Notes under the pieces: model-generated
What the model saw: the letters and a program-made list of their open reading frames with translations, nothing else
Databases searched by the model: none
Told to the model about the DNA's origin: nothing
Part shown: in pieces, positions 525 through 15,017 of the stretch
How positions within the stretch are numbered: position 1 is the first letter of the stretch
Layout: every line of letters starts with the position of its first letter
Translations under genes and position numbers: made by a program
NCBI GenBank assembly: GCA_003139775.1
Contig: PLGI01000104.1
Location: 4,697-46,853 of the forward strand
Length of the DNA stretch: 42,157 bases
Reading direction: 5' to 3'
DNA from: Syntrophaceae bacterium
GTDB lineage: Bacteria > Desulfobacterota > Syntrophia > Syntrophales > Smithellaceae

Positions 525-2165
525 ATGTCAGATTTTGTCAATAAAACGATCGGCCAGTTAGTCAAGGATACGGCCACGCGCTATCCGGAAAATACCGCTT
601 TGGTTTCTCTGGAGTTTGGCATCCGGCAGACTTATCGCGAATTTTACAAAACATGCAGAGATGTAGCTAAAGGTCTCATGGCGATGGGCATTAAGCGGGG
701 AGATCATGTCGCCGTCTGGACGACGAATATTCCCGAATGGGTTTATTTGCAGTCTGCTCTGGGAATGACGGGCGGCGTCCTCGTTACAATAAACACAAAT
801 TATCAGACGCATGAACTGGAATACATCCTGAAGCAATCCGATTCCACGAGTTTGTTTCTTATTGATTCCTACCGGGACACCAGCTTCTACGATACTGTCC
901 GTCAGGTCACTCCCGAGTTGGATTCCTGTACTACGGGATCTCTGGTTTCGGAAAAACTGCCGCTTTTAAAAAACGTAATCTATATCGGCAAAAAAGAAAA
1001 CACGCCCGGCATGTTCAAATTTTCCGATCTGATCAAAATGGGAGAGAAAATAACCGAGCAGGAACTGGATGAACGGATGAATTCTCTTTCCGATGGTGAC
1101 GTGATCAATATGCAATACACTTCGGGCACCACAGGTTTTCCGAAAGGCGTCATGCTGACTCACCACAACATTGTCAACAACGCCCGGATGGTCGGAGATG
1201 TCATGGGCATGACGGAAAAAGACAGCCTGCTGATTCAGGTGCCGATGTTTCACTGCTTCGGCTGTGTGATGAGCACTCTTAATTCTATTTACCACGGTTC
1301 AACAATGGTCATTCTGGAATCTTTTGATGCACTTAAAGCGCTTCAGTTTATAGCCGCGGAGCGATGCACCGCCGTCAACGGCGTCCCGACGATGTTTGTA
1401 ACGATGTTGAATCATCCCGATTTTGACAAATACGACATGAGTTCTCTGCGTACCGGCATTATGGCCGGAGCTCTTTGCCCGGAAGAGGCAATGAATCAGG
1501 TACGCACGAAAATGCACTGTCCCGAAATTGTAATTGCCTTCGGTCAGACGGAATCCTCTCCCGTAATGACGATGACGCGGCGTGATGATCCGGTAAAGCT
1601 TCGCGTGGCAAGTGTCGGCAGACTTCTACCCGACATTGAAGGCAAGATCATTGATCCGGAAACGGGCCATGACGCACCCGTAAATGTGCAGGGTGAAATA
1701 GTTACAAGGAGCGCCTGCATAATGCAGGGATATTATAAAATGCCGGAGGCAACGGCAGAGGCTATCGACAAGGAAGGCTGGCTCCATACGGGAGATTTGG
1801 GCGAGATTGATGAAAACGGTTATTTCAAGGTTACCGGACGGATTAAAGATATGATTATCCGCGGCGGTGAAAATATCTATCCCCGCGAGTTGGAGGAATT
1901 TCTCTATAAAAACCCCAAAGTGATGAATGTTCAGGTTGTCGGCATTCCCGATAAAAAATATGGCGAGCAGGTTCTGGCGGCAATCCAGCTCAAGGCGAAT
2001 CAAACGGCTTCGGCTGAAGAGTTTGTCGAGTTTTGCAAGGGCAAAATCGCGCGGCACAAGATTCCGAAGTATTGGGAATTTGTGGACAGCTATCCGATGA
2101 CGGCCAGCGGCAAGATTCAGAAATTTAAAATGAAGGAAATATTTGAAAAGAAATATCCGGTTTAA
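525..2165 (+). CDS. AMP-forming acyl-CoA synthetase (FadD/ACSF2-like)
   Basis: A 546-residue member of the ANL superfamily, expected to activate a fatty or related carboxylic acid to its acyl-CoA with ATP, releasing AMP and PPi. The AMP-binding P-loop is YTSGTTGFPKG at residues 198-208. GQTESSP follows, then the TGD motif at about 422-424. The hinge and C-terminal motif is GRIKDMIIRGGENIYP, and the catalytic lysine is K530 in TASGKIQKF. Length and motifs fit medium- or long-chain acyl-CoA ligases; the substrate cannot be read from sequence. I chose the ATG at 525, which has GGGGG at 513-517 upstream, over an in-frame GTG at 504 with no ribosome binding site. A second ligase gene follows, separated by about 285 bases of repeats, so the two may not share a transcript. 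Confidence 0.93.
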   Translation: MSDFVNKTIGQLVKDTATRYPENTALVSLEFGIRQTYREFYKTCRDVAKGLMAMGIKRGDHVAVWTTNIPEWVYLQSALGMTGGVLVTINTNYQTHELEYILKQSDSTSLFLIDSYRDTSFYDTVRQVTPELDSCTTGSLVSEKLPLLKNVIYIGKKENTPGMFKFSDLIKMGEKITEQELDERMNSLSDGDVINMQYTSGTTGFPKGVMLTHHNIVNNARMVGDVMGMTEKDSLLIQVPMFHCFGCVMSTLNSIYHGSTMVILESFDALKALQFIAAERCTAVNGVPTMFVTMLNHPDFDKYDMSSLRTGIMAGALCPEEAMNQVRTKMHCPEIVIAFGQTESSPVMTMTRRDDPVKLRVASVGRLLPDIEGKIIDPETGHDAPVNVQGEIVTRSACIMQGYYKMPEATAEAIDKEGWLHTGDLGEIDENGYFKVTGRIKDMIIRGGENIYPRELEEFLYKNPKVMNVQVVGIPDKKYGEQVLAAIQLKANQTASAEEFVEFCKGKIARHKIPKYWEFVDSYPMTASGKIQKFKMKEIFEKKYPV

Positions 2166-8412: not shown

Positions 8413-8660
8413 TATTGTGAAACTCCAATTTTCATAACGAAGTGTATGGAAATTGGCAAGTTGTAATGAGACCCAAGCTTTAATGAAACTCAGATATTAC
8501 AAGCGCAGCACAGTAATATCTGCAAGTTGTAATGAGACTCGCTGAAAACGAGCGAAGCGAAGTTAGAAGCGGTAGTCGAATTATCCCACGTGCGAAGCTA
8601 AGTGGGACTAAATGAACCTCAAATATTACCAATGCAGTTTATCCCGCATAGCGGAGGATA
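8413..8660. repeat. Composite intergenic repeat (family E), copy b
   Basis: Begins with TTATTGTGAAACTCCAATTT, the reverse complement of the motif that ends copy c at about 9820-9837. It then has AAGTTGTAATGAGAC twice, an AGATATTAC...GTAATATCT hairpin, and ATTATCCCACGTGCGAAGC with its GTGGGA partner. The segment 8457-8525 is about 90% the same as 15072-15142. The 27 bases at 8524-8550 are repeated exactly at 42131-42157. It has no coding potential. The array looks built from separate hairpin modules joined in different orders. Confidence 0.75.
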
Positions 8661-9887: not shown

Positions 9888-11231
9888 ATGAAAGCCCACA
9901 TTTTAATAATTGATGACGACGCGGTCGCCTGCGAGTTTTTGCAGGAAGCTCTTTCGCTTGAGGGCTATGAAGTAAAAGCCTATACATCAGCCAAGGAAGC
10001 TTTGGAACAAGACCTTTCCCGATATGATCTGCTTATGTCCGATATTCGCATGCCTGAAATGGATGGTTTGCAGTTCCTGGATCAAGTGCACAAAAAATGG
10101 CCGAATTTGCCGGTGATTCTTATGACTGCTTATGGTTCTCTGGAAACAACAATGGAGGCAATAAGTCTGGGCGCCTGGGATTATATCAGCAAACCTTTTT
10201 CACCGGAAGATTGCCGGGCTATTGTAAAAAAAGTGTTGGAAGTTCGGGAACTGCGTGAACGGCGCATGAAATTGCAACCGGAAACAACCGAAGATCCGAA
10301 ATTGATTGGTTCGTCAGCGATGATGGTTGAATTCTACAAACAAATTGCCCGTATTGCCGATGCGTCGGCCAGTGTCTTAATAGAAGGTGAAAGCGGAACA
10401 GGAAAAGAATTGACTGCCCATTCTTTACACAATATGTCTTCACGCAGTGACAAACCTTTTGTTATAGTTCATTGTGGAGCTATTCCCGATAATTTATTGG
10501 AGTCTGAATTATTTGGTTATGAAAAAGGCTCCTTTACCGGAGCTGATCATCAGCATGCCGGATTGTTGGAATCAGCAGAAGGCGGAACTGTTTTTCTCGA
10601 CGAAATCACGGAAATGTCGACGTCTCTGCAAGGAAAGTTTTTGCGGTTTATGCAAAATGGCGAAGTAAGAAGAATTGGCAGCCATGATGTTCGCAATGTA
10701 ACTGTAAGGGTCGTGGCGGCGGCCAATAAAAACATTGACGAAGAGGTAAGTCTCGGCCGCTTTCGTCTGGATTTGTTATACAGATTTATTGTGCGTTTGC
10801 GTGTCCCGCCATTGAGAGAGCATAAAGACGATATTCCATTGCTCATTGAATCATTACTGAAAAAGTTTGGTTATCCAAATGTGCGCATTTCGTTAGAAGC
10901 GATGGAATTACTTATAGCGTATAACTGGCCGGGTAACGTGCGGGAAATGGAAAATGTTCTGCAACAAACCTTGTTGCTTTCACCTTTCGCGGTTGTCCTC
11001 CCGGAAAATTTGCCGGAACATTTTCAACAACAAAAAGAAAATAAGGAAGACGTTGCCTTGTCCAATATATCTCCGTTAGAGGCAGCGGAAAGAGATAAGA
11101 TATTACAAACGCTGAAGGAGACTTCCTGGAATCAAACTAAAACCGCACAGCTTTTGGATATTGACCGGAAAACATTGCGCCTGAAGATTCGCCGTTATGG
11201 CTTATTGGACGAAAAACTTTCCGCGGATTAA
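9888..11231 (+). CDS. Sigma-54-dependent response regulator (NtrC/AtoC type)
   Basis: 447 residues in three domains. The receiver domain (1-120) has the acidic pocket D9-D11, phospho-acceptor D52 (SDIRMPEMDG), T80 and K102. The AAA+ domain has Walker A GESGTGKE (167-174) and FLDEITEMS as Walker B. The sigma-54 contact loop reads GSFTGA (214-219) instead of the usual GAFTGA, and RFRLDLLYRF is the arginine-finger region. The C-terminal Fis-type helix-turn-helix lies at about 399-440 (NQTKTAQLLDIDRKTLRLKI). It activates sigma-54 promoters after phosphorylation. The convergent histidine kinase on the opposite strand is the obvious partner. AGG lies seven bases before the ATG. No clear -24/-12 target was found in the window. 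Confidence 0.93.
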   Translation: MKAHILIIDDDAVACEFLQEALSLEGYEVKAYTSAKEALEQDLSRYDLLMSDIRMPEMDGLQFLDQVHKKWPNLPVILMTAYGSLETTMEAISLGAWDYISKPFSPEDCRAIVKKVLEVRELRERRMKLQPETTEDPKLIGSSAMMVEFYKQIARIADASASVLIEGESGTGKELTAHSLHNMSSRSDKPFVIVHCGAIPDNLLESELFGYEKGSFTGADHQHAGLLESAEGGTVFLDEITEMSTSLQGKFLRFMQNGEVRRIGSHDVRNVTVRVVAAANKNIDEEVSLGRFRLDLLYRFIVRLRVPPLREHKDDIPLLIESLLKKFGYPNVRISLEAMELLIAYNWPGNVREMENVLQQTLLLSPFAVVLPENLPEHFQQQKENKEDVALSNISPLEAAERDKILQTLKETSWNQTKTAQLLDIDRKTLRLKIRRYGLLDEKLSAD

Positions 11232-11373: not shown

Positions 11374-12912
11374 TTAATTATCTTTGAATATCGGCAGGTA
11401 AAGAATAATAGAAGTTCCTTGACCCAGCGAGCTTTTTATCTCCATTTTACCACCGTGAGTTTTAACTATGTCGCGGACAATAGCCAGACCCAGTCCACGC
11501 AAGCCCTCATTTTGTCTTGTGCTAAAGAATGGTTCGCATGCTTTTTCGATCATATCGGGCGGCATTCCCGTGCCTGTATCATTGATAGTAACTGCTACCA
11601 AACCATTTGGGGAAATAGTTTGAGCTGATATAGTTATTTTTCCTCCTTGCGGCATTGCTTCCAGAGCGTTTTGAATTATATTCATCAGGGCGGTCTGAAT
11701 GCGATAACGATCGACGTATAAAGGTTTGATCACGTCGTCAATATTCACTTTCATTTCTACTCTATTTTTTTGCATGAAGGATTCGACAAGCGGCAGTGTC
11801 TCACTTAAAATTTCCTGGATAGTGAACACTTCAAAATGAGGCTCCGGAAGGCGTGTGGCCTTGCGCACATTTTGAATGACGTTATCCAGCCGCTGGGTTT
11901 GTTGGACAATCAATTTTAATTTATGGGCTACATCCGGCGGCCAGCCTTCTTTCTCCAAAAGAAGGTTAGCCAGACCTCCAATGGAATGGAGCGGCGTACC
12001 CAGATCATGGGCGATATTAGCCGTTAAATGCCCTAAAGCAGTCAATTGTTTCAGATCGGCAACTTGTTTTTGCAGTTGAACAACCTTGAGCGTTTCTTCG
12101 CGGACGCGATCTTCCAAATGCCTGTTTAAATCAAGGTTTCTAGTAATTACATCCTGAATTTCATCAGCCATCATGTTAAAGTGTTTAGATATCTGTCCCC
12201 ATTCATCCGGGTGAACTATGGGAATTCTGTTTACATATTGTCCTTTTTGAAATTCATCAATTGTCTGAATGATCATCTTTAGCGGTCTGCCGATTATCCA
12301 GCCATAACTTAATCCTAATATAAAAAGAATGAATAGTAATAATCCTATACTGCTGAAAATCAGCAATTGTTGGGCGCTATTCATAATTTCGGCATTCGCG
12401 CGCGAAAAACCAATAATACCCACGACGACGTGCGAGCCTTTTATATCTACTGAAGCAGGATAAAGCAAACCCAGCGCTGGACCGCTTTCCGTTTCTATTT
12501 TAACATAACGTACCTTGTTTTTTGCGCTGGCGGCAAAGACAATATTATCAGGCCATTCATATTGGACCCGGCTGGCACCGGTAACGTAATCAACGTTGCC
12601 ATGACTGATGTCAAAAATATCAATTCTTGCCAGACGCACATCGGTTTGAATGAAGTCTTTAAGAGCCGAATCAAGGGCATGAAGCCCCCGTTTTGTCGGG
12701 AAAAATTGATAAAAGGTGCTGATTGTATCGGCCACACCTTCAAGCCTTTTTGCCTGTTGATCGACCAATATTCTATCCAGAGCGTTAAGCTGAACAAAGC
12801 CCCAAATGGCCATAGTTAAAGCAAGACCAACAACCGTTAGAGTAATCAGTCTTACACGCACAGTCAAATTATCATTGTAGGTGATGATCTTGTAGAATAT
12901 TTTTTTAAACAT
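11374..12912 (-). CDS. Membrane sensor histidine kinase
   Basis: 512 residues. Transmembrane helices lie at about 21-43 and 183-207, with an extracytoplasmic sensor domain of about 140 residues between them. A HAMP segment follows (about 208-265, RPLKMIIQTIDEF), then a coiled coil, a HisKA domain with the H-box TANIAHDLGTPLHSIGG (phospho-His H302) and a HATPase_c domain with NIIQNALEAM, DTGTGMPP and GLRGLGLAIV. The H-box reads HDLGTPL rather than HEIRNPL. It is convergent with the sigma-54 regulator and is very probably its kinase. No Shine-Dalgarno sequence precedes the ATG, and a perfect TATAAT lies only five bases upstream, so the mRNA may be leaderless. The ligand is unknown. Confidence 0.92.
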   Translation of the reverse strand: MFKKIFYKIITYNDNLTVRVRLITLTVVGLALTMAIWGFVQLNALDRILVDQQAKRLEGVADTISTFYQFFPTKRGLHALDSALKDFIQTDVRLARIDIFDISHGNVDYVTGASRVQYEWPDNIVFAASAKNKVRYVKIETESGPALGLLYPASVDIKGSHVVVGIIGFSRANAEIMNSAQQLLIFSSIGLLLFILFILGLSYGWIIGRPLKMIIQTIDEFQKGQYVNRIPIVHPDEWGQISKHFNMMADEIQDVITRNLDLNRHLEDRVREETLKVVQLQKQVADLKQLTALGHLTANIAHDLGTPLHSIGGLANLLLEKEGWPPDVAHKLKLIVQQTQRLDNVIQNVRKATRLPEPHFEVFTIQEILSETLPLVESFMQKNRVEMKVNIDDVIKPLYVDRYRIQTALMNIIQNALEAMPQGGKITISAQTISPNGLVAVTINDTGTGMPPDMIEKACEPFFSTRQNEGLRGLGLAIVRDIVKTHGGKMEIKSSLGQGTSIILYLPIFKDN

Positions 12913-12956: not shown

Positions 12957-13236
12957 CCACGGTATTCAAGCCTCCGCCTTTGGCGGAATAATTTCCAATA
13001 GCCTTTGGCTATTGGATAGTTCGACTTGCTATTTAAACTTCGCTATGCTCGTTTTCAGAGAGTCTCACTACTACTAACGCTTCAAACCTATAGTGACCTT
13101 TAGGCCATTCACTGCGTTCGTTTTCAGCTTGTCTCATTACCCTCCACCTTTGCGCGATAATCCCACGTCGCTTCGCTCCTGGGATTGTTCGTCCAGCAAA
13201 TTTCAGTACGCTACGCTTCTGAAACTTGGGACTCAC
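12957..13236. repeat. Composite intergenic repeat (family E), copy d
   Basis: A run of hairpin modules: GCCTCCGCCTTTGGCGGA, CCAATAGCCTTTGGCTATTGG (a near-perfect palindrome), GTGACCTTTAGGCCATTCAC, and the 77-base module at 13161-13236 also present at 9738-9816. It contains GTTTTCAGAGAGTCTCACTA and GTTTTCAGCTTGTCTCATTA, the reverse-strand versions of the GAGACTCGCTGAAAAC motif in copy b. It fills the gap between the kinase gene and the small-protein cluster and joins directly onto the terminator at 13241. Confidence 0.7.
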
Positions 13237-13240
13237 AAAA

Positions 13241-13273
13241 AAAGAAGGGACAGGTAAAACCTGTCCCTTCTTT
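13241..13273 (-). terminator. Rho-independent terminator of the first Ala/Lys-rich gene
   Basis: AAAGAAGGGACAGG and CCTGTCCCTTCTTT form a perfect 14-bp stem with a five-base loop. Read on the minus strand it ends in a run of seven T. The same hairpin follows the next paralogue at 13629 and, decayed, the third at 14004. Confidence 0.85.
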
Positions 13274-13298
13274 AGAAACACATAAAGTTTTTACAAAC

Positions 13299-13574
13299 TT
13301 ATTTTGCCGGAGCTTCTTCGGCTGCTTTGGCGGCTTCATCAGCCTTCTTATCGGCAGCTTTCTTTTCGGCTTTCTTTACTTTCTTTTTGGCTTTCTTAGC
13401 GGCTTTGGCTTTCTTCGCATCAGCCTTTATTTTCGCCTCATCCTTTACAACATCAGCCTTTTCGACTGCTACAGCCTCTTCCTTTGTCGGAGCGACAGCG
13501 GCTTTATCGACCGCCATTACGGTGGTGCAAAATGCGAAAACCAATGCAACAACAAACAATCCTAAACGCTTCAT
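13299..13574 (-). CDS. Exported Ala/Lys-rich low-complexity protein, paralogue 1
   Basis: 91 residues. The N-terminus MKRLGLFVVALVF... is a clear Sec signal peptide with predicted cleavage after VMA (about residue 21). The mature part starts with a short Ala/Glu/Asp segment and becomes a Lys/Ala repeat (KKAKAAKKAKKKVKKAEKK) before an acidic Ala-rich tail. Composition resembles histone H1-like tails, but the signal peptide points to the periplasm or outside. There are no recognisable domains; the function is not known. GGAGGAT lies eight bases before the ATG. It is the last of three tandem paralogues (87-100 residues) with nearly the same signal peptide, leader and terminator. A single long transcript or separate units are both possible. 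Confidence 0.8.
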   Translation of the reverse strand: MKRLGLFVVALVFAFCTTVMAVDKAAVAPTKEEAVAVEKADVVKDEAKIKADAKKAKAAKKAKKKVKKAEKKAADKKADEAAKAAEEAPAK

Positions 13575-13628
13575 CTTAAAATCCTCCTTCTTAAATTTTG
13601 TTTTATTTTAATACTAACTTTTTAATTT

Positions 13629-13661
13629 AAAGAAGGGACAGGTAAAACCTGTCCCTTCTTT
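13629..13661 (-). terminator. Duplicate terminator hairpin after Ala/Lys-rich paralogue 2
   Basis: Same 14-bp stem and loop as at 13241-13273, but on the minus strand it is followed by AAATTAAAAAG instead of a long T-run, so termination should be weaker. Some transcripts probably read into paralogue 1. Confidence 0.7.
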
Positions 13662-13686
13662 AAAACCACATAAAGTTTTTACAAAC

Positions 13687-13950
13687 TTATTTTGCCGGAG
13701 CTGCTTCAGCGGCTTCATCAGCCTTCTTCTCAGCAGCTTTCTTTGCGGCTTTCTTTACTTTCTTTTTGGCTTTGACTTTGGCTTTGGCTTTCTTCGCATC
13801 AGCCTTTACTTTCGCCTCATCCTTTACAACAGTAGCCTTTTCGGCGGCTACAGCCTGTTCCTGTGTCGGAGCTGCCATGGGCTCAGCTGCCATAACGGTG
13901 GTGCAAAATGCGAAAACCAATGCAACAACAAACAATACTAAACGCTTCAT
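13687..13950 (-). CDS. Exported Ala/Lys-rich low-complexity protein, paralogue 2
   Basis: 87 residues, the shortest of the trio. The signal peptide is the same as paralogue 1 except for one residue (MKRLVLFVVALVF), with cleavage after VMA. The mature protein has PMAAPTQEQAVAAEKATVVK, then KADAKKAKAKVKAKKKVKKA and an Ala/Glu-rich end. The mature chain has no Cys, Trp or Tyr. The upstream leader with GGAGGATTTTAAG before the ATG matches paralogue 1 almost base for base, so the duplicated unit of about 380 bases includes leader, gene and terminator. Function unknown. Confidence 0.8.
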   Translation of the reverse strand: MKRLVLFVVALVFAFCTTVMAAEPMAAPTQEQAVAAEKATVVKDEAKVKADAKKAKAKVKAKKKVKKAAKKAAEKKADEAAEAAPAK

Positions 13951-14003
13951 CTTAAAATCCTCCTTCTAAATTTTGTTTTATTTCAATACTAACTTTTTAA
14001 TTT

Positions 14004-14036
14004 AAAGAAGGGACAGGCTTTACCTACCGCTTCTTT
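14004..14036 (-). terminator. Decayed terminator hairpin after Ala/Lys-rich paralogue 3
   Basis: AAAGAAGGGACAGG now faces CCTACCGCTTCTTT, with three mismatches in the 14-bp stem that is perfect in the other two copies. It probably no longer terminates well. Confidence 0.5.
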
Positions 14037-14061
14037 AGAACCGCATAAAGTTTTTACAAAC

Positions 14062-14364
14062 TTATTTCGTGTCTGCCGGAGCTGCTTCTTCAGCCTTCTT
14101 TTCGGCGGCTGCTTTCTTAGCGGCGGCTTTCTTTTCGGCGGCTGCTTTTTTAGCGGCGGCTTTCTTAGCGGCGGCTTTCTTAGCGGCTTTGGCTTTCTTA
14201 GCATCAGCCTTTACTTGCGCCTCATCCTTTACAACAGTAGCCTTTTCGGCAGCTACAGACTTGTCTGTGGGAGCTGCTGCGGGAGCTGCTATGGGCTCAG
14301 CCGCCATTACGGTGGTGCAAAATACGAAAACCAATGCAACAACAAACAATCCTAAACGCTTCAT
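14062..14364 (-). CDS. Exported Ala/Lys-rich low-complexity protein, paralogue 3
   Basis: 100 residues, the longest of the trio and the first transcribed. The signal peptide is as in paralogue 1. The mature part has PAAAPTDKSVAAEKATVVKD and then an expanded repeat made of KKAAA and EKKAAA units (about 60-90), ending EEAAPADTK. The repeat differs from the KKVKKA type of the other two, which suggests slippage or repeat expansion after duplication. It should form a long charged helix outside the cytoplasm. Function unknown; possible roles are binding anionic envelope polymers or DNA. GGAGGAT precedes the ATG. Confidence 0.8.
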   Translation of the reverse strand: MKRLGLFVVALVFVFCTTVMAAEPIAAPAAAPTDKSVAAEKATVVKDEAQVKADAKKAKAAKKAAAKKAAAKKAAAEKKAAAKKAAAEKKAEEAAPADTK

Positions 14365-14432: not shown

Positions 14433-14813
14433 TTATTTTTTACCTGAAGCAGACTTTGCCTCAGCCGGATTAATGTCTTTTTTCTTGAAAATAACTTTGG
14501 CCACTCTCGATGCTATTAATTTTCCGTCATTTTCAGTGTATGCTATTTTTACAGAATCATTTACAATGATATTTTTTACAGGTTTTTCTAAAGCAAACTC
14601 CATTGTTTCTACATCACCTTTTACGGTACGTTCAATCTTCACTGATTCATCGGAAATCTCGATAACTTTTCCTGTAGCATGCATTTTGGCGGCTTTGACC
14701 ATATTTGTTTTAACCGGATCGGCCTTAACAGGGGAAGCGGCCATATCAGCGGCAAAAGCTAACGTTGACAAAAGAAAAACCGCGCCAACTATATACCATA
14801 AAGCTTTTTTCAT
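14433..14813 (-). CDS. Small exported protein with DUF5666-like beta domain
   Basis: 126 residues from the ATG at 14813, where GGAGGTGG is correctly placed; the frame is open further upstream but has no start with a binding site. MKKALWYIVGAVFLLSTLAFA is a signal peptide with cleavage near residue 21. The mature part has a Val/Lys linker, then a compact beta-rich domain from ATGKVIEISDESVKIER to KIAYTENDGKLIASRVAKV. It resembles the small OB-like DUF5666 family, a resemblance judged by eye only. It is the first gene of the minus-strand group and is followed 68 bases later by the Ala/Lys-rich trio. Confidence 0.75.
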   Translation of the reverse strand: MKKALWYIVGAVFLLSTLAFAADMAASPVKADPVKTNMVKAAKMHATGKVIEISDESVKIERTVKGDVETMEFALEKPVKNIIVNDSVKIAYTENDGKLIASRVAKVIFKKKDINPAEAKSASGKK

Positions 14814-14886
14814 GATGAACCACCTCCATAACATTTCGAAAGTACGTAAAAGCAACTTACATGCCAACAAAGAAATATAAATATAC

Positions 14887-14915: not shown

Positions 14916-15017
14916 ATAAATTTTACTGGAAATGCTTGCTACTTTTTTAAGACGATAAGTGGGGAATAACTCCCCCTGCAATGGGGAATAATTAATCAGA
15001 CACATCTCTTTTGCATG

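Follow-up and report, generated by a model that had tools for sequence, protein, structure and literature searches.

The closest working parallel to the locus described here is ZraPSR of E. coli, a zinc and envelope stress system, and for its repeated Lys/Ala-rich proteins (KA) the closest counterpart is Asr, the acid-shock protein of enterobacteria. Proteins of the ZraP kind (ZraP/Spy-CpxP) belong to the Metal_resist or LTXXQ families. In excerpts of the papers concerned, ZraR is described as a sigma-54-dependent activator of zraP with a role in envelope stress (PMC7657598), zinc-bound ZraP as a repressor of its operon (PMC10848872) and Asr as an intrinsically disordered periplasmic chaperone that supports outer-membrane integrity (PMC10746267). 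Excerpts of a further paper give Desulfovibrio vulgaris DVU1419 and DVU3381, from the same broad bacterial group as the organism studied here, as sigma-54 response regulators with small regulons annotated 'envelope stress response' (PMC4641369). These excerpts differ from the present case in mentioning neither a KA-like protein nor the upstream element discussed below, and lysine-rich, GGGGA and TTCCCC have 0 occurrences in the text of that paper. In the literature searched, which did not cover preprints, we found no description of a system that couples an OB-fold protein, KA and a kinase. We are moderately confident that KA is the periplasmic output of a ZraPSR-like sigma-54 two-component envelope-response system, and that tandem duplication raises its dosage.

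The window, the whole 42,157-nucleotide stretch of Syntrophaceae DNA that was analysed, carries three tandem minus-strand genes in the region 13241-14364, taken from the list of open reading frames. They encode the exported Lys/Ala-rich proteins KA1 (13299..13574, 91 amino acids), KA2 (13687..13950, 87 amino acids) and KA3 (14062..14364, 100 amino acids, KKAAA-type), the latter two also supported by the family alignment. Direct-repeat families with spacings of 375-414 bp span all three open reading frames, which confirms the tandem triplication proposed by an earlier, sequence-only reading of this DNA. The shared leader and signal peptide and the diverged Lys/Ala mature part that it described are likewise evident, with DNA identities among KA1-KA3 of 94-98% in the signal peptide and 74-87% in the mature part. 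Taking a signal peptide of 21 residues, assigned by eye, the mature chains of KA1, KA2 and KA3 have 70, 66 and 79 residues, in agreement with the 66-79 residues it gave. Its view that the proteins carry no known domain also holds, since no Pfam or NCBIfam profile matches KA1, KA2 or KA3 above cut-off. In the mature part dN is below dS in 7/7 pairs compared, marginally so for KA1-KA2 (0.15 vs 0.18). Given this and the relatives in other genomes, KA1-KA3 look like real genes, and purifying selection on the KA protein frame is evident from these comparisons. Open reading frames antisense to KA (for example 13185-13565, plus strand) are of the kind that Ala/Lys codons commonly produce on the opposite strand. 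Separately, two copies of a dispersed repeat, TTCGTTTTCAGNNNGTCTCA, flank the array downstream (13048-13067 and 13117-13136); another lies at 8533-8552, and the genome holds 70 such places with at most one mismatch, as against 0 for the reversed control.

The further members that the same reading proposed to look for exist. The genome has seven KA copies, the three of the array and one each on contigs C115, C116, C119 and C149, as against a single KA gene at the locus in most relatives. A KA match occurs in 35/60 related genomes searched, this one included, and a scan of named genomes returned 13 KA loci under the titles Syntrophaceae, Smithella or delta-proteobacterial MAGs. Because three tandem KA genes, with two more elsewhere, are found in the sister genome G014 as well, the triplication is older than the split between the two genomes. 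The C119 copy (L004) has a broken, stop-bearing 3' remnant of the OB-fold gene upstream and so derives from the window locus as a segmental duplicate. Beside the C115 copy (L005, 1021-1779) lies a CsbD stress gene; a sigma-54-like site is found upstream, together with a different dyad, CCTCAATATGCTGAGG, a variant form of which also occurs in L039. In a phylum-wide search the KA profile matched 21/297 genomes at E <=1e-5, of which 12 lie outside the order. Most of the 16 loci inspected, some within the order, look like chance low-complexity matches. At one locus from this search, L095, genes resembling KA and OB were recognised by eye together with a sigma-54 site and an adjacent sigma-54 activator, and a clear upstream element was not found by the same means. 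No KA relatives were found in plasmids or viral contigs; a phage origin was set aside, with one weak PHROG match, of unknown function, for KA3.

The sequence-only reading treated the three KA units as free-standing, and in this respect it has to be revised: they lie inside a sigma-54-driven operon, downstream of the OB-fold gene. It also overlooked the promoter, the element further upstream, the kinase and regulator pair and the fact that relatives have the gene in single copy. The -24/-12 promoter, TGGCATGTAAGTTGCT, is located at 14851..14866 on the minus strand. Sites matching TGGCAY-N5-TTGCT or a close variant occur 32-41 bp 5' of the OB gene at 27/27 loci where OB and KA occur together (a set that includes L041, a duplicate of L024), with 0.08 expected from shuffles, and a sigma-54 site was also found at 16/18 OB loci without adjacent KA. 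The whole genome contains 20 strict sigma-54 sites compared with 4 for the reversed pattern. Upstream of the promoter, at 14961..14997 on the minus strand, is a two-part element, GATTAATTATTCCCCA-N5-GGGGGAGTTATTCCCC, identified by conservation and by a matrix as a probable response-regulator site. Its consensus, GATGAATAATTCCCCA-N4/5-TGGGGAATTATTCCCC, recurs at every OB-KA locus inspected, some 130 bp 5' of the promoter (110-145 bp in held-out loci). The matrix, built from 23 training loci of one family, found the element at 26/27 held-out loci and in 0/100 shuffles of each; 22/27 came from ten families other than the one used for training. This test covered neither L127 nor those dispersed copies at which no sigma-54 site had been found, and for L128 the promoter was assumed to lie 50 bp before the start. 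The sole miss was the C115 copy. At six other sigma-54 promoters of the same genome the matrix found the element in 0/6, with 9 to 72 of 100 shuffles reaching the score. The matrix superseded a strict CCCC-N-GGGG pattern, which had placed the element in position at 18/27 loci (0.74 expected; a further match, that of L008, is off position) and at 5/18 OB loci without adjacent KA. The exact palindrome GGGGAATWATTCCCC proved a poor detector alone, with 15 places at up to two mismatches compared with 5 for the reversed control.

Promoter and element also occur together 5' of KA genes remote from a kinase, namely the C149 copy (L007), L031 and L138 of the sister genome, and in L031 and L138 the KA gene is away from an OB gene. 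Among the four dispersed copies of the window's own genome the pair is present at C149 only; the C115 copy has its sigma-54-like site but lacks the element, and no sigma-54 site was found at the C116 and C119 copies. A further gene, on contig C178 (L132 of G000, 1587-1946, minus strand), encodes a small exported charged protein, unrelated to KA, and has both a sigma-54 site and the element. This protein has no Pfam family, and pattern search found no sigma-54 site at its 85% identical relative in G014. Since element and promoter occur together at the window, C149 and C178, the regulon would comprise at least three transcription units in this genome, all encoding small exported proteins. The neighbouring regulator, being the sigma-54 activator conserved at this locus, is the natural binder of the element, and we infer that it binds there. 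Regulation of KA by the sigma-54 system is well supported at the level of sequence.

Every KA unit is followed by a hairpin, AAAGAAGGGACAGG-loop-CCTGTCCCTTCTTT or a variant thereof. On the minus strand these are a perfect intrinsic terminator with a T7 run after KA1 (13241..13273; -25.4 kcal/mol, z -5.3), a perfect hairpin without a T-run after KA2 (13628..13662; -28.8 kcal/mol, z -6.6) and an imperfect one, also without a T-run and with three substitutions relative to the perfect stem, after KA3 (14003..14037; -16.7 kcal/mol, z -2.9). These details match the sequence-only reading, with a T-run in the last unit only, none in the second and three substitutions in the third. Its claim that each unit has its own terminator stands as far as the hairpins go and fails for the two inner ones, which lack a T-run. 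Only the hairpin of KA1, the last unit, is a convincing stand-alone terminator, and it was the sole 15-pair terminator found in the terminator scan; the inner hairpins may act as leaky terminators or stabilise the message. A terminator-like hairpin lies 3' of 33/40 KA genes, where 4.85 would be expected. Of the 13 named loci, nine (L037, L038, L040, L042, L043, L045, L046, L048 and L049) were skipped in the terminator, promoter and composition counts, their KA proteins being identical to loci already counted. Given how often such a hairpin follows KA, the sigma-54 transcript would mostly stop upstream of the kinase gene, and would be expected to deliver much KA and little kinase message. A mobile-element reading of the hairpin was rejected: GGGACAGGT-ACCTGTCCC occurs just 8 times genome-wide when three mismatches are allowed, 5/8 of these beside KA, so the hairpin travels with the KA gene and is no common dispersed repeat.

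The hairpin and the near-identical 5' coding region could together be taken as a regulatory RNA or a device of translation control, with the protein secondary. Across the seven copies, DNA identity is 84-98% in the signal peptide against 48-87% in the mature part, and codon identity at conserved signal-peptide positions is 0.76 compared with 0.56 for the kinase genes of those genomes, a comparison that used the best of three reference copies and so favours the signal peptide. While this conservation leaves room for a role at the RNA level, high expression would yield the same codon bias and the protein frame is maintained, with dN below dS, and we regard a primarily RNA-level constraint as very improbable.

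The usual Syntrophales locus comprises the sigma-54 promoter, the exported OB-fold gene, KA, the terminator, a histidine kinase and a convergent NtrC-type regulator. In the window the sensor kinase (11374..12912, minus strand, 512 amino acids; HAMP, HisKA and HATPase_c by Pfam) lies 386 bp past KA1, and the regulator (9888..11231, plus strand), convergent with it, has receiver (Response_reg), Sigma54_activat and Fis-type HTH (HTH_8) domains by Pfam. The motif by which such activators contact sigma-54, usually GAFTGA, reads GSFTGA in the window regulator. Among relative loci L008-L036 the kinase lies beside KA in 27/29 and the OB gene in 26/29; L018 and L031 have neither within the stretch covered, and L022 has no OB match. 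Named loci have the kinase in 10/13, with the convergent regulator in 9 of those 10. Gene order is OB, KA, kinase, except in L032 (KA, OB, kinase). Across 149 Syntrophales genomes, OB occurs in 94, separate KA in 81 and both in 74 (Fisher p ~1e-15, genomes being counted without kinship correction), and in 56 OB and KA are adjacent on one strand. These counts exclude rows in which the KA profile fell on an OB signal peptide or the OB profile on a KA signal peptide, and another 12 overlapping rows were removed. Seven KA genomes have no OB match, and a separate KA match is lacking in 20/94 of the genomes with OB, which indicates that KA is dispensable for the core system. One of the genomes without separate KA, G105, has two OB genes in tandem (L127, contig C92). 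At the 18 OB loci without adjacent KA, a kinase is adjacent in 14, a regulator alone in 2 and neither in 2. The element is present at L120 and L121, where the sequence covered contains neither a kinase nor a regulator gene, a point against the favoured explanation.

As in ZraPSR, then, an NtrC-type regulator and a sensor kinase share one locus (Pfam), where they would control an adjacent gene for a small exported protein, which has a sigma-54 promoter (27/27) and lies beside the kinase (27/29). The core fold of the window kinase is closest to ZraS, tied with DivL, in a comparison of the catalytic core only; its sensor domain was poorly modelled (mean pLDDT 57.8). The window locus differs from ZraPSR in gene order, in scores far below the family cut-offs (kinase 150.5 against 479 bits for ZraS, regulator 358.4 against 760 bits for ZraR) and in its exported proteins, KA1-3 and the OB protein having no Metal_resist or LTXXQ match up to E 1.

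The first gene of the operon (14433..14813, minus strand) encodes an exported 126-amino-acid protein with a Lys-rich tail, characterised by alignment and AlphaFold2. The model is a five-strand barrel with an OB region at residues about 44-106 (pLDDT about 83-93). Its fold matches include CusF (Z 9.8, rmsd 2.6 over 67 residues, 18% identity), a silver chaperone (Z 9.7) and single-strand-binding proteins (Z 9.7, tied with CusF). A metal-response switch, in which the OB protein would carry metal in the periplasm or partner the sensor in the manner of CusF/SilF, with KA an accessory, would fit the two chaperones among the top matches, the shared size, export and fold, and the ZraS-like kinase core. 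A relative, L028, has a weak CusF_Ec match (15.0 vs a cut-off of 27 bits), and contig C10 of this genome holds a separate ZraP-like (Metal_resist) gene (L050/L133) with a strict sigma-54 site, albeit without the element. However, unrelated OB folds score equally, identity to CusF is low, Pfam CusF_Ec does not match the window protein, and the mature KA proteins, with no Cys in 39/40, do not have a metal-binding composition. A search of solved-structure sequences with the OB profile returned a single match, at a meaningless E of 0.87. The window protein is predicted with assurance to have an OB fold; metal carriage is not implied by tied matches, and the metal switch seems to us a doubtful reading.

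The OB protein may bear on the origin of KA. OB proteins at the 18 loci without adjacent KA begin with a signal peptide resembling that of KA and carry a basic tail, those of L120 and L121 being the most KA-like, and in some relatives a KA-type signal peptide, an OB domain and a Lys/Ala tail are found in a single protein. The KA profile also matches OB proteins at the signal peptide. We propose that KA is a duplicate of the OB gene that has lost the OB domain, bearing in mind that signal peptides are short and biased. A more specific and tentative possibility is a split exported pair under the kinase and regulator, a previously undescribed envelope-response module in which the OB-fold protein would be the receptor and KA a polycationic chain derived from it by loss of the OB domain. 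KA would then serve as a counter-ion or disordered chaperone of adjustable dose, both shielding the envelope and damping the kinase, and tandem as well as dispersed duplication under one regulator site would set that dose.

The KA alignment gives the consensus MKRLVLFVVALVFAFxTTVMAADKAAAPA...KKAKKAKKAKKA...EEKKAExxAAPAAK. Over 40 KA proteins the mature part is ~30% Lys and ~35% Ala, has a median net charge of +8 (range 0 to +14) and, in 39/40, no aromatic residue or Cys. This composition resembles histone H1 tails, and KA3 has weak HC2/H1-like matches, which together with the charge would suit secreted binders of nucleic acids or polymers, the idea put forward by the sequence-only reading. They might, for example, be matrix proteins of syntrophic aggregates that bind lipopolysaccharide or extracellular DNA, with the two-component system only setting their timing. 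However, these matches are far under cut-off (15.0 vs 40 for PF07382; 18.4 vs 80), the C116 copy has a net charge of 0, and the signal peptide, which sets KA apart from Hc1/Hc2, directs it to the periplasm by default; secreted binding is in our estimation unlikely. Like Asr, KA is a small exported, basic, Lys/Ala-rich and repetitive protein, but its regulation and neighbours are unlike those of Asr, and NF033636 scores KA3 at 20.9 and KA2 at 16.4 against a cut-off of 50 bits, KA1 not being among the matches listed.

In the ZraPSR-like system that we favour, the membrane histidine kinase would sense an envelope signal and phosphorylate the neighbouring NtrC-type regulator. On the two-part element, the regulator would activate sigma-54 polymerase at the -24/-12 promoter, a step with strong sequence evidence, and the resulting OB-KA transcript would mostly be halted by the terminator that precedes the kinase gene. 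Both products are predicted, from sequence only, to be exported through their signal peptides. What KA does biochemically we infer from its make-up: chains of ~55-80 residues with a net charge of ~+8 and no aromatics would form abundant polycationic, disordered or helical periplasmic chains, which would coat anionic envelope polymers or bind unfolded proteins and might also act back on the kinase. In this lineage, triplication and dispersal would then give a higher KA dosage.

The KA repeat is real, and its regulation is more interesting than the repeat itself. A strange low-complexity exported family gains a concrete regulator, promoter and candidate binding site, which makes its induction and role directly testable. 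The array would present a case of dosage evolving through tandem duplication while the regulatory switch stays fixed. If the proposed reading is true, poorly cultured syntrophs would possess an order-wide sigma-54 envelope-response system based on a disordered cationic protein rather than a folded ZraP-type chaperone.
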